From IMG/VR virus record IMGVR_UViG_3300037104_000223, positions 1 to 47,716 of that record: DNA of 47,716 nt; one strand, written 5' to 3'. Source of the stretch: a virus. Under the pieces are notes generated by a model. It was not told the DNA's origin. It saw only the letters and a program-made list of their open reading frames with translations, and ran no database searches. Shown piece by piece: positions 2,126-16,195 of the stretch (position 1 is the stretch's first letter; each line of letters opens with the position of its first letter). The translations under genes and the position numbers were made by a program.

Positions 2126-3273
2126 TGTTGTGGGCCGACAGCACAACCCCCGCGGCTCACGCCGGCTACTCGCCGCTGGACCTGGCCATGTGGCAAACGC
2201 TGGTCAAGGCCACAAACGAGCGATATCGCTGTTTCTTCGGAACCGCCTACAACGGCGGGCTGCCGTTCGCCCGCGTGCCCATCGCCGGCTGCAAGGTCGA
2301 TTCGCTCGCCAGTTCCCTGGCCGCTCTCGACACGGCCACCGAGAATCAGGACGCCGACCCGGCGACCCACGTCTACGGATGGGGCTGGCTGCAGCGGCGG
2401 ATCGAAGCCCTCTTCCCCGCGTGCGTGGTGTGCGCCGACGACGCGGCAGCTTTCGAGTACGTCGGTCAGCGGACGCGCGATCCGGCCCTCTACGACGCGC
2501 CGGCGCTGGCGAAAGTGTTCAAGCTGATCACGGGCGGCCACTTCACGACCTGGCCGCGGGCCACGAAGATGCCGGCCCACTGGAGCGACTTCAGCGACGG
2601 GGCCTACTCCGCGGGCTACCTGGCTGAGCATGACATCGTGGGGCCGTGGCTGCCTTACGTGGCCTGCCGGCTGCTGGACTACCTGCGGTGGACGCTGGGC
2701 GATTACGACTGGGGCATCCCCGATACTTGGACCCAGAACCAGAAGGTGTACGGCGATGGCGCGGGCTACGGGGTGAGCGGATGGGGGGTCTGTACCACTG
2801 TGGCAGGCGGGCTGTGGGGCGCGAACGGAATGAACGGTTACGAGTTGCACATTGGCCCCTATGCCTATTCGTCGGGCGGCTACGCTGCGCCGCCGCCGAC
2901 CGGTGGCACCTATGCCGCGCAGCTCGCCCGGCTGGTGGCGCAACTCACGGCTACGGGAACGATGCCGACCGGGGCGAGCGGATGCGTGGCGCAGGGAATC
3001 GTCCGGTGCGTCGCTCCCCCCGGCGACTCTGTTGTCTTCGATGCCTGCGGCCAGACCTGGGCGAGCTTGGATTATCAGGAGCTAGGCCGCGTTACGCTCA
3101 CCAGCAACACGCCGACCGTGGTGGGGGTCTTTAACAGCTTGGACGCCCCGCCGTGGTGTGACTCTCCGAGCCTTGGGGTGAACACCGCCAAGGGGTTTAC
3201 AACTTCGGTTTCTCGCCTGATCCAGCGCTGGGAGAGCGTGCTGACCTACTGCAGAGCCGACCACACTGTCTGA
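2125..3273 (+). CDS. Putative tail-tip or adhesin protein
   Basis: 382 residues, not assigned to a known family. It is unusually rich in Trp, Tyr, Gly and Cys (for example HVYGWGWLQRRIEALFPACV and a Trp-rich stretch near residues 180-240), a composition common in carbohydrate-binding or receptor-contacting virion proteins. About nine cysteines are spread along the chain. No endolysin motif (HExxH, lysozyme E-D-T, CHAP Cys-His or an amidase zinc triad) is evident, so a lytic role cannot be claimed. It is the last gene of the coupled tail-tip trio, and its start shares one base with the upstream stop. Confidence 0.55.
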   Translation: MLWADSTTPAAHAGYSPLDLAMWQTLVKATNERYRCFFGTAYNGGLPFARVPIAGCKVDSLASSLAALDTATENQDADPATHVYGWGWLQRRIEALFPACVVCADDAAAFEYVGQRTRDPALYDAPALAKVFKLITGGHFTTWPRATKMPAHWSDFSDGAYSAGYLAEHDIVGPWLPYVACRLLDYLRWTLGDYDWGIPDTWTQNQKVYGDGAGYGVSGWGVCTTVAGGLWGANGMNGYELHIGPYAYSSGGYAAPPPTGGTYAAQLARLVAQLTATGTMPTGASGCVAQGIVRCVAPPGDSVVFDACGQTWASLDYQELGRVTLTSNTPTVVGVFNSLDAPPWCDSPSLGVNTAKGFTTSVSRLIQRWESVLTYCRADHTV

Positions 3274-3328
3274 CCTATGATCCCCCAAACCCCCGGCGCC
3301 CGCGGCCATTTTGTTCGGAGCCTCCGCC

Positions 3329-3829
3329 ATGCCTCACCGCCACGTTGTCCGCCTTTGCCGCAGAATGCCACTCTTGACCACGATTGCCGTGGCCGTGCTG
3401 GCGTCCATCGCCGGAGCCACCGTCGTCGCTCAGGCCAGCCAGCCGTCCACAGCGGCCACCAACAGCACCGGCACATTCCTCAGCGATTCGACTTGGTTCA
3501 GCATGGGGCTGGTGGTGATGTTGGTGAGCGGCACGGCGTTCATCAGCCGCAAGTTGGCCCTGGTGGATGCCCGCTTCCAGGCCGGCGACGTTCGGTTTGC
3601 CGGCGTCGATAAGCGGCTCGATCAGCACGACGCGCGCGACAATCAGGCCGACGCACGAGCCGTGCAGAACGAACTCGTGCTGGCATTGCTCAACGCGAAG
3701 ATCAATGCGGGCGATGACACGCGGGACAGCAACCTTCGCGCCGCCGTGGCGCGGCGTGAAACCGTGTCCGACAAGCTCGATGACCGGATCGGACACCTGG
3801 AACATCCTGTCCCCCCCCCCCCCCGATGA
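3329..3829 (+). CDS. Membrane protein with two N-terminal hydrophobic segments and a coiled-coil tail
   Basis: 166 residues from the ATG at 3329, preceded by GGAG at 3317-3320. An in-frame ATG at 3311 would add six residues. A hydrophobic segment at about residues 14-34 (MPLLTTIAVAVLASIAGATV) is followed by a second at about 58-72. The C-terminal 90 residues are charged, with heptad-like Asp/Arg/Ala repeats typical of a coiled coil. Topology and position between tail-tip genes and the lysis region fit a spanin- or holin-associated protein, but no family is recognised. The last codons are read through a run of 14 cytosines, so the C-terminus (PPPPR) depends on the exact run length. Confidence 0.6.
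   Translation: MPHRHVVRLCRRMPLLTTIAVAVLASIAGATVVAQASQPSTAATNSTGTFLSDSTWFSMGLVVMLVSGTAFISRKLALVDARFQAGDVRFAGVDKRLDQHDARDNQADARAVQNELVLALLNAKINAGDDTRDSNLRAAVARRETVSDKLDDRIGHLEHPVPPPPR
3811..3824. repeat. C14 homopolymer at the 3' end of the membrane protein gene
   Basis: Fourteen consecutive C residues lie five codons before the stop at 3827-3829. One base more or less would shift the frame and alter only the last few residues. The run is a candidate for polymerase slippage or for a sequencing-length error. Confidence 0.9.
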
Positions 3830-3867
3830 ATGAACGATGAGCCGGGGATAACCTGAAAGGCTTCACC

Positions 3868-4023
3868 ATGGACGTCATCCTAATCGTGCTCGTGATTCTG
3901 CTGCTCTGCGGTTCGGGGCTCAGCGCGCCCAGCTTCGGCTGGCACCACTACGGCTGGGGGCCGAGCGGCGGGCTGGGCCTGCTGCTGATCATCGTGCTCG
4001 TCGTGCTGCTGCTGCGCCGCTGA
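3868..4023 (+). CDS. Small two-helix membrane protein (DUF3309-like)
   Basis: 51 residues. The start ATG at 3868 follows a weak AAAGG at 3856-3860. Two hydrophobic segments (about residues 2-14 and 32-49) flank a Trp/Gly-rich turn with the signature YGWGPSGGLGLLL, closely resembling the small bacterial DUF3309 membrane proteins. The gene lies among other small membrane proteins just before the late terminators. The function of the family is unknown. A role as a small holin or antiholin is possible from size and topology but is not shown by the sequence. Confidence 0.7.
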   Translation: MDVILIVLVILLLCGSGLSAPSFGWHHYGWGPSGGLGLLLIIVLVVLLLRR

Positions 4024-4056
4024 TCGAAACCAAACCTCTTACTCAAGGATCTGACA

Positions 4057-4320
4057 ATGCACTATCGTAACGGACGCGAAGCGAAGAACGGGGACAAGAT
4101 CGTGAAAGTCGATGCCCGATACGTAGACGGCAAACTTGTCCAGCAGATCGTTGCCTTCGGTGTGCTGTACGACGCCGTTCCGGGCAATGACCACTGCAAC
4201 GGAAACATCGCCCCGATCACCGACGACAGGAGCGCGTGCATGTGCGACTGCCTGCACGTCGATGACGTGGTGGAGATCCTCGCCGAGAAGGGCCTCGACA
4301 AGCGGACGGCCGGGATGTGA
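4057..4320 (+). CDS. Conserved-looking small phage protein
   Basis: 87 residues with an AAGGA ribosome site at 4047-4051. The N-terminus (YRNGREAKNGDKIVKVD) looks like a short beta barrel of the kind found in small phage proteins with an NGDKVV motif. Near residues 57-70 there is a Cys cluster (CMCDCLHVDD) that could bind metal. It has no membrane segment. It is the last gene before the terminators at 4.36-4.46 kb. Function unknown. Confidence 0.65.
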   Translation: MHYRNGREAKNGDKIVKVDARYVDGKLVQQIVAFGVLYDAVPGNDHCNGNIAPITDDRSACMCDCLHVDDVVEILAEKGLDKRTAGM

Positions 4321-4361
4321 CCGCCGCTGATCGATCCTCCACTACTGGGTGGTAGCGGGTG

Positions 4362-4391
4362 CCCCCAGCGCCGGTTCGCGTCGGGGGTTTT
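4362..4391 (+). terminator. Rho-independent terminator of the late operon
   Basis: CCCCC at 4362-4366 pairs with GGGGG at 4383-4387 and is followed by TTTT. It lies 40 bases after the last late gene stop (4320). Confidence 0.6.
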
Positions 4392-4406
4392 CATTGCGCG
4401 TTTCCC

Positions 4407-4456
4407 AAAAAGCGCGCGCGCCCAAAAGAGCTTTTTTTGCGCGCGCGCTGTTTTTT
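4407..4456. terminator. GC-alternating hairpin with A and T tracts (possible bidirectional terminator)
   Basis: An A-tract and GCGCGCGCG (4407-4420) are followed, after a loop containing T7, by GCGCGCGCGC (4439-4448) and then T6 at 4451-4456. The symmetry (A-tract, GC stem, T-tract) would stop transcription from either side. Another GCGCGC block follows at 4457-4464. Confidence 0.6.
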
Positions 4457-4471
4457 GCGCGCGCTCAGATT

Positions 4472-4645
4472 CAGACTTGAAGAGCAAGGGAGGAAGATGG
4501 GTTCTAGTCAGCCAGCGGGAGGCAGAGCGGGGGGAGAGCGACCCCGCAAATGGGGGTCGCTCGCTCAGCCATCGGTCGGCGTCGCGGTGCTTGGCGAGCC
4601 GCACTGATTGTTCGCGCTCTGCGGCCGCGTCAACCCCAAATTGCA
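4472..4645 (+). other. Gap segment with one hairpin and a possible 36-residue ORF
   Basis: There is no convincing gene between 4321 and 4699. A short ORF (4497-4607) has a strong AGGGAGG site just 3 bases before its ATG but a low-complexity product. A perfect 10-bp hairpin (GAGCGACCCC at 4536-4545 with its complement at 4553-4562, 7-base loop) lies inside it without a T-run, so it may be an RNA structure or part of the termination zone. Confidence 0.4.
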
Positions 4646-4674
4646 TTGACGCACGCGCCAGTCACGGATAAACT
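4646..4674 (+). promoter_or_regulatory. Sigma70-type promoter for tRNA-Met and lysis cassette
   Basis: TTGACG at 4646-4651, a 17-base spacer, then TAAACT at 4669-4674. The predicted start near 4681 is about 20 bases before the tRNA. It sits after the late terminators, so this cassette appears to have its own promoter. Confidence 0.7.
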
Positions 4675-4699
4675 GCATTCGTGACTCAGCAATCCATTT

Positions 4700-4771
4700 C
4701 GCGCGGTAGAGAAACGGTATCTCGCCGGGTTCATAACCCGGAGGTCGCGGGTTCGACCCCCGCCCGCGCCA
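4700..4771 (+). tRNA. tRNA-Met (CAT) with initiator (fMet) features
   Basis: A 72-nt cloverleaf: acceptor 4700-4706 with 4764-4770, D stem GAGA/TCTC with a 7-base loop containing GG, anticodon arm CCGGG-TTCATAA-CCCGG with CAT at 4732-4734, 5-base variable loop, T arm GCGGG-TTCGACC-CCCGC, and discriminator A at 4771. Three hallmarks of bacterial initiator tRNA are present: no pair at 1:72 (C opposite C), three consecutive G-C pairs next to the anticodon loop, and A11-U24 in the D stem. CCA is not encoded. A strong promoter lies just upstream. An elongator Met or a lysidine-modified Ile tRNA would not normally show all three features. Confidence 0.88.
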
Positions 4772-4963
4772 TTCCCGTGTCCCTGGCGTCGCGGACATTC
4801 GGCGTCCAGCAAGGCACGCTCCAGTCGGGCGCCGGGCCTAACCTCGGGCCGCAGTTTACGGCGAACGATCAATCGTCCCGACTGGAACCTGTGCCCCCCT
4901 ACCGCCGGCGCGGCCCATCCCCGAGCCGCGCCGGCTTTTGACCATCTCACCCAAGGAGCAGCC

Positions 4964-5395
4964 GTGAAGACCCGAACCTGCATCGCCGTCGCCGCCGTGC
5001 TCGTGCTGTCCGCGTGCGCCACCACACCCCGCCAGCAGTACGCCGCGGCCGAAGACGTGTTCATCACCACACTCCAGGGGCTCAACGTGGCCCGTACCTC
5101 GGGGAAGATCAACGACGCCCAGTGGAAGGCTGTCCTTGTGGCCGCAGACGCCGCGCAGGCTTCGCTCCAGGCGTGGCGACGGAACATCACCGCCGGAACG
5201 CCGGCCGATCAGACCATCATCGACGTGTTCCAGTCCGCCCTTTCCGCCATGTCGGCGGCAGCGGTAACACCCACCCCCACCACGAAAGGGAGCAACGCAT
5301 GGACCCCGCAACGATCATCCTGGCCATCAATGCCGCTAGCCTGGCCCTCGGTCTGGTCGAGAAGCTCATCTCCGATCTTCAGGCAAGCGGCGTAG
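4964..5395 (+). CDS. Small lipoprotein (outer spanin candidate)
   Basis: 143 residues starting at a GTG with AAGGAG 6 bases upstream. The N-terminus is a lipoprotein signal: Lys-Arg, hydrophobic core IAVAAVLVLS, then lipobox LSAC with the lipidated Cys at residue 18. The mature part is helical and Ala-rich up to about residue 110. The last 32 residues overlap the next gene in another frame and look less constrained. Position next to a holin-like gene supports an outer-membrane lysis protein, but no paired inner spanin is certain. Confidence 0.65.
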   Translation: MKTRTCIAVAAVLVLSACATTPRQQYAAAEDVFITTLQGLNVARTSGKINDAQWKAVLVAADAAQASLQAWRRNITAGTPADQTIIDVFQSALSAMSAAAVTPTPTTKGSNAWTPQRSSWPSMPLAWPSVWSRSSSPIFRQAA

Positions 5396-5493
5396 ACCCA
5401 ACCGACGCCGTGCTGGACGCGAAGGACGCACTTGCGGCGCAGGCGCTCGCTCTGAGCCACACGCTCGCCAAGACCACCACTCCCGGAGCTTGA
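5299..5493 (+). CDS. Small helical protein overlapping the lipoprotein gene
   Basis: 64 residues. The ATG at 5299 has GGGAG about 6 bases upstream and lies inside the 3' end of the lipoprotein gene, in a different frame (97-base overlap). The sequence is Ala/Leu-rich and amphipathic (LAINAASLALGLVEKLISDL) with no clear transmembrane length. The overlap resembles the nested arrangement of phage lysis genes. Function unknown; a lysis accessory or virion-associated helix are both possible. Confidence 0.55.
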   Translation: MDPATIILAINAASLALGLVEKLISDLQASGVDPTDAVLDAKDALAAQALALSHTLAKTTTPGA

Positions 5494-5495
5494 CC

Positions 5496-5762
5496 ATGGA
5501 CCGCACTCAGATCATCAGTTGGGCAGTCGGCACGGCCGCCCGCTACGCCGCTCTGGCACTTGCCGGCTGGCTCAGCCTCAGCGCCACTCAGTCGGCCAAC
5601 CTCCAGGCCCAGATCGGGCAGGCGGTGGGCGCCGCCGTGGCGGTCGGGATCTCCCTGTGGAGCAGCTACCGGGGTCGGGCCAAGGCTCACGCGACCAGCG
5701 CCGCGGCTGGTGTTGTCGAGGGTCAGGACCAGCAGTCGCCGCCGTCGCCGAAGCCCGTTTGA
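5496..5762 (+). CDS. Holin-like membrane protein
   Basis: 88 residues from the ATG at 5496, two bases after the previous stop. Two hydrophobic helices (about residues 8-28 and 42-57) are separated by a short polar turn and followed by a basic, then Pro/Ser-rich cytoplasmic tail. This is the size and topology of class II holins, which permeabilise the inner membrane at lysis. No endolysin is recognisable beside it. It is the last gene before the 5781 terminator. Confidence 0.6.
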   Translation: MDRTQIISWAVGTAARYAALALAGWLSLSATQSANLQAQIGQAVGAAVAVGISLWSSYRGRAKAHATSAAAGVVEGQDQQSPPSPKPV

Positions 5763-5780
5763 CGTGCTCTTTCATCCTCC

Positions 5781-5815
5781 CCCGCCGTGGCCCAGAAGCC
5801 CCACGGCGGGTTTTT
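5781..5815 (+). terminator. Strong Rho-independent terminator between convergent blocks
   Basis: CCCGCCGTGG at 5781-5790 pairs perfectly with CCACGGCGGG at 5801-5810 (10-base loop) and is followed by T5 at 5811-5815. The leftward block ends at 5815, so the hairpin separates the two converging transcripts. Confidence 0.9.
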
Positions 5816-13915: not shown

Positions 13916-13983
13916 TCGGGCGGGGAGGACTCGAACCTCCATCCGGGTAGCGATCCCGTGTCCTGCCGTTGAACGACCGCCCG
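13916..13983 (-). tRNA. tRNA-like element with short anticodon stem
   Basis: It lies in the gap between the NinB-like and ssDNA-binding genes. Acceptor CGGGCGG/CCGCCCG is perfect; the D arm GTTC-AACGGCA-GGAC and T arm GGAGG-TTCGAGT-CCTCC are canonical, with discriminator A. The anticodon stem has only 4 pairs (CGGG/CCCG) around ATCGCTA, and the variable loop is 3 bases, giving 68 nt. By the U33 rule the anticodon would be CGC, but U37 is abnormal, so identity is uncertain. The D arm resembles tRNA-Gly. Confidence 0.6.
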
Positions 13984-16046: not shown

Positions 16047-16080
16047 GGTGTCGCCTCAAAAGTGAGTTGATGCGTGAGAA

Positions 16081-16149
16081 AACGGGGGTCAGGAGTCGAA
16101 CCTGACATCTCCAGCAAGGGCCTGGTGGGTTACCGTTACACCACCCCGC
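16081..16149 (-). tRNA. Degenerate tRNA-like element
   Basis: It sits in a 150-base gap. A canonical T arm (TCAGG-TTCGACT-CCTGA), a tRNA-Gln-like D-loop region (GGTGTAACGGTAAC) and a 4-bp anticodon stem CCAG/CTGG are visible. The acceptor is imperfect (GCGGGGT against CCCCCGT) and position 33 is C, so the anticodon cannot be assigned. Either a decayed tRNA or a tRNA-like structure. Confidence 0.4.
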
Positions 16150-16195
16150 AGTTTGCGACCGGATGCCCGCCCGTCGCCGCGGGGACTGAGTCAGG

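Follow-up and report, generated by a model that had tools for sequence, protein, structure and literature searches.

A probably functional phage-encoded initiator-type tRNA-Met, one of a little-studied viral kind

The window analysed here, the whole 47,716-nt virus record IMGVR_UViG_3300037104_000223, carries a CAU tRNA gene that, judged from its sequence, is probably a functional phage-encoded initiator tRNA of the bacterial type, forming a small unit of its own behind a sigma70-like promoter. Its assignment to the initiator class is supported by its determinants, by covariance models and by its nearest neighbours, and the gene itself is not unique but a well-formed example of a known, little-studied kind. 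The record bears a 127-bp terminal direct repeat, a redundancy indicating an apparently complete virus genome, and its proteins, compared with PHROGs and Pfam, include a terminase of the GpA type, a portal, a head maturation protease, a head decoration protein, a primase-helicase, a RuvB-like clamp loader and a NinB-like protein. The tRNA is well folded and lies alone, mid-genome, within a 643-bp gap between the predicted genes 4057-4320 and 4964-5395. The elements discussed below are as follows:

4646-4674, plus strand: sigma70-type promoter-like site TTGACG-N17-TAAACT (promoter scan)
4660-4686, no strand assigned: inverted repeat AGTCACGGAT / ATTCGTGACT, 9 of 10 positions complementary
4700-4771, plus strand: initiator-type tRNA-Met(CAU) (ARAGORN, Rfam RF00005, structural parser, covariance models)
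about 4904-4939, plus strand: 11-bp inverted repeat without mismatches, then TTTT, about 130 nt past the tRNA (sequence reading)
13916-13983, minus strand: tRNA-like element, called Ala(cgc) by ARAGORN (Rfam 38.1 bits)
16080-16150, minus strand: tRNA-like element (covariance scores of 37.9 bits with the initiator model and 20 with the elongator model)

The tRNA was detected by both ARAGORN and Rfam RF00005 (62.1 bits, E 3.5e-11), and these tools and a structural parser agree on a canonical cloverleaf with a CAU anticodon. The parsed structure reads CGCGCGG TA GAGA AACGGTA TCTC G CCGGG TTCATAA CCCGG AGGTC GCGGG TTCGACC CCCGC CCGCGCC A, with every stem intact except for the open 1:72. An initiator tRNA requires an open 1:72, and here the parser places C1 opposite C72, which form no Watson-Crick pair; it also finds A11-U24 and an anticodon stem of G29G30G31:C39C40C41 (GGG:CCC). 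The first-pass annotation had described a CAT tRNA with exactly these three properties, and all of them, together with its coordinates, are borne out by the parsed structure. The acceptor stem carries G2-C71, C3-G70 and G4-C69 (parser and feature table), the signature of the formylase, for which these pairs are the acceptor determinants. Position 73 is A, and CCA is not encoded, the next bases being TTC. Relative to bacterial initiators, the body is atypical at C5-G68, C27-G43, U32 and C60.

The weight of these determinants was gauged on CAU tRNAs from bacterial genomes of three phyla, retrieved with a search pattern left free at 1:72 and in the anticodon stem, which yielded 81 distinct sequences. 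Position 1:72 is unpaired in 28 of the 31 tRNAs with A11-U24 and in 1 of the 50 others, all of which have C11-G24; G29-31:C39-41 is present in 18/31 and 0/50, respectively, and all 31 have either GGG:CCC or AGG:CCT. Given this co-occurrence across the 81 tRNAs, the combination found in the viral gene is not due to chance. One CAU tRNA from a Rhizobium genome (L195) has an open C1xA72 and AGG:CCT yet C11-G24, an initiator-like exception to A11-U24.

Covariance models made from two bacterial groups, initiators and elongator-Met/Ile2 tRNAs, score the viral tRNA at 80.4 and 63.5 bits, respectively, an isotype comparison that favours the initiator identity proposed earlier. In the controls, known phage and bacterial initiators favour the initiator model (89.9 versus 69.4 for the annotated tRNA-fMet of phage QDWS359) and elongators the opposite, the order being reversed for bacterial non-initiators (e.g., 53.3 with the initiator and 84.8 with the elongator model). 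A log-odds test placed the viral tRNA at +3.8, and at -7.5 once the named determinants were left out; in the same test bacterial initiators score from +35 to +55, non-initiators below -26. As +3.8 is a low value, the nearest-neighbour and covariance analyses were added; log-odds and covariance models disagree mildly on how typical the body of the tRNA is. Among several hundred sequences, the 20 nearest are all initiator-type, with the best identity, 0.85, reached by two viral tRNAs (L352 and L533), versus 0.70 for the best bacterial elongator. L533 shares C1xC72, C27-G43 and U32 with the tRNA studied here, indicating that its odd body features recur among phage-type initiators. An identity as elongator tRNA-Met or tRNA-Ile2(CAU), which needs a paired 1:72 and C11-G24, was rejected, neither being present.

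With bacterial tRNA-fMet, such as that of the E. coli metZWV and metY loci, the viral tRNA has in common the CAU anticodon, the open 1:72, A11-U24, G29-31:C39-41, the three acceptor pairs and A73, but it differs in having CxC rather than CxA at 1:72, in C5-G68, C27-G43 and U32, in its 7-nt D-loop, in the unencoded CCA and in being virus-borne. The same class of determinants is found in the tRNAs of Stenotrophomonas phage vB_Sm_QDWS359, Pseudomonas phage PaMx74, Variovorax phage VBv52 and mycobacteriophage Erdmann (Bixzunavirus), which are 0.79-0.85 identical to it over 67 aligned positions. The PaMx74 tRNA, which is unannotated, also has C27-G43 and U32; that of QDWS359 is annotated as fMet, and both lie directly 3' of the terminase gene and encode CCA, unlike the tRNA described here. 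The Erdmann gene, annotated as tRNA-Met, sits within a tRNA array rather than alone. Short-D-loop initiators of Patescibacteria/Absconditabacteria share the D-arm UAGAGAAACGGUAUCUC and GGG:CCC, whereas they have U1-A72 and are probably cellular genes, with a best identity of 0.81. Phage-borne tRNAs of the initiator class, annotated as such by tool, have also been reported from Erwinia phage pEa_SNUABM_47 (PMC7760394) and from Sinorhizobium phiLM21-like prophages (PMC12429752), phages and hosts that differ from those concerned here; in most of the Sinorhizobium prophages having a tRNA-fMet, it is likewise solitary (PMC12429752).

The earlier report of a TTGACG-N17-TAAACT promoter 25 bases upstream of the tRNA held up: TTGACG (4646-4651) and TAAACT (4669-4674) are separated by a 17-nt spacer, the site ends 25 nt 5' of the tRNA, and it is the sole match on both strands of the 1.2 kb scanned, where shuffles lead one to expect 0.1. 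Promoter-like sites lie upstream of 17/100 solitary viral initiator-type tRNAs (3.8 expected) and of 8/36 solitary viral CAU tRNAs of other types (2.5 expected). Since both are enriched, an own promoter is a trait of solitary tRNA genes and not of initiators. The inverted repeat at 4660-4686 spans the -10 element and the expected start site and could, on weak evidence, be an operator, being 1 of 20 inverted pairs in a 641-base region. The repeat at about 4904-4939, which the terminator scan did not list, is a possible weak terminator that may end the tRNA transcript. Upstream of the unit, positions 4407-4467 consist of alternating (GC)n and T/A runs that form overlapping long inverted repeats.

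A primase-based search recovered no relatives, and megablast of half of the genome against a phage collection gave no match. The only relatives found are four short, partial contigs related through the terminase (L177-L180), none of which is a close relative spanning the tRNA region; they contain no DNA similar to positions 3260-5800, and the tRNA was not seen there. Another contig (L011), considered as a relative with the same D-arm, was rejected, its match lying inside a reading frame and being due to chance. Two of the contigs, representing a distant terminase relative (42%), carry a degenerate initiator-like tRNA (L179:7013-7089 and L180:8026-8102) with C1xA72, an encoded CCA and a lost U8, about 520 nt past the terminase gene; in PaMx74 and QDWS359, an intact initiator-type tRNA follows that gene directly. 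Within our genome, the element at 13916-13983, just upstream of the NinB-like gene, is probably degenerate, in view of its short variable loop and lack of G3-U70, and that at 16080-16150, which lacks CAU and whose D and anticodon arms are degenerate, is possibly a decayed initiator-like tRNA.

The first-pass annotation had implied that initiator tRNAs are rare in phages, an expectation that the wider survey contradicts. The D-arm UAGAGAAACGGUAUCUC recurs among viral contigs, and a search combining it with the anticodon returned 64 distinct well-parsed viral tRNAs. In 57 of them 1:72 is open, with six different combinations of bases (CA, AA, CU, UU, CC and GA), although the pattern left those positions free. 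A second pattern, neutral to all initiator determinants, yielded at least 101 distinct viral CAU tRNAs, some of which may be host flanks of proviruses. Among the matches listed, 24/101 belong to the A11-U24 class; 1:72 is open in 20 of these 24 versus 13 of the 77 others (Fisher 4.6e-9), and G2-C71 together with C3-G70 is found in 19/24 versus 18/68 viral tRNAs with C11-G24. That A11-U24 predicts both the open 1:72 and these acceptor pairs indicates that such viral tRNAs are constrained to conform to the initiator pattern. Isolates with an initiator-type tRNA include Erdmann, QDWS359, PaMx74, VBv52, phPA-G and POI1126, in several of which it is unannotated or labelled tRNA-Met only. Published records of tRNA-fMet exist for Erwinia jumbo phages, including pEa_SNUABM_47 (PMC7760394; its role is discussed in PMC9686651), and for the Sinorhizobium prophages (PMC12429752).

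The anticodon stem behaves differently. Among the matches listed, 10 of the 24 viral initiator-type tRNAs have the canonical triplet, versus 31/31 bacterial ones (p 4.5e-7), a comparison of modest sample sizes uncorrected for relatedness. As a lead, viral initiator-type tRNAs thus appear often to drop the G-C triplet while keeping the acceptor determinants; the tRNA at 4700-4771 retains it. Initiator-type tRNAs without the G-C triplet, with many open 1:72 combinations, are widespread across viral loci (L004-L035, L081-L176 and L400-L517), and AGT:GCT is the commonest such stem in the D-arm set. Bacterial AGG:CCT is already an exception to the three-G-C-pair rule, and our results suggest that viral initiators often break this rule, which a review calls universal (PMC4611024). 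It is conceivable, if improbable, that viruses keep initiator lineages of their own in which acceptor and formylation determinants are selected and the triplet is free, altering P-site stringency or resisting anticodon-stem nucleases, our tRNA being a triplet-keeping member.

If the gene works as its structure predicts, the transcript would be matured by the host's RNase P and CCA-adding enzyme, charged by host MetRS and formylated by host methionyl-tRNA formyltransferase, the last step being proposed on account of the open 1:72, G2-C71/C3-G70/G4-C69 and A11-U24. IF2 would then deliver the tRNA to the P site, and its three G-C pairs would allow it through the IF3 check there. During infection it would thereby add to the initiator tRNAs of the host or take their place. 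A role with leaderless mRNAs, raised in the first-pass annotation, is unsupported: Shine-Dalgarno-like motifs stand at 17/39 longest-ORF starts against a background of 8.6%, and with this roughly 5-fold enrichment the motivation falls away.

Other explanations of the gene were weighed. As a decoy or replacement, a phage initiator could survive the cutting of host tRNA-fMet by defence nucleases, VapC-type or other, so that translation goes on. Some host nucleases, such as VapC (cited in PMC10264068), are known to cleave initiator tRNA, the variable anticodon stems of the viral group alongside conserved acceptor determinants would fit evasion, and U32 and C27-G43 set our tRNA apart from bacterial initiators. 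However, its CAU-AA/CCC target is preserved and its G-C triplet complete, so that it would probably be cut too, and phages are reported to avoid tRNA-fMet genes in general where VapC threatens (PMC10264068). We consider this explanation unlikely here; nuclease evasion may apply to viral initiators more widely but is a weak proposal for this tRNA, whose anticodon stem-loop target is intact.

The two degenerate tRNA-like elements of the opposite strand and the atypical body in the log-odds test could instead point to a recently captured or decaying gene without function, but the stems, 1:72 alone being open, and the combined determinants are intact, and its closest neighbours in sequence belong to other viral initiators and not to one bacterial gene, making this quite doubtful. 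We regard as highly unlikely that the gene is a relic of tRNA-dependent lysogeny, complementing or deriving from a host tRNA-fMet attB. Some actinophages do need a phage-encoded cognate tRNA for lysogeny (PMC10865867), and the distant terminase relative (42%) ends in a tRNA-Val gene, maybe its attachment site; yet no integrase was recognised among the genome proteins tested against PHROGs and Pfam, flanking genes included, on which ground a prophage attachment-site origin was rejected, and the tRNA is complete, mid-genome and has its own promoter.

A functional initiator tRNA thus remains the preferred reading of the gene, and the survey suggests that phage-borne initiator tRNAs are common and often annotated merely as tRNA-Met. 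Because initiator tRNA governs how fast and how accurately every protein is begun, a virus with its own copy could retune initiation or survive the loss of the host's.
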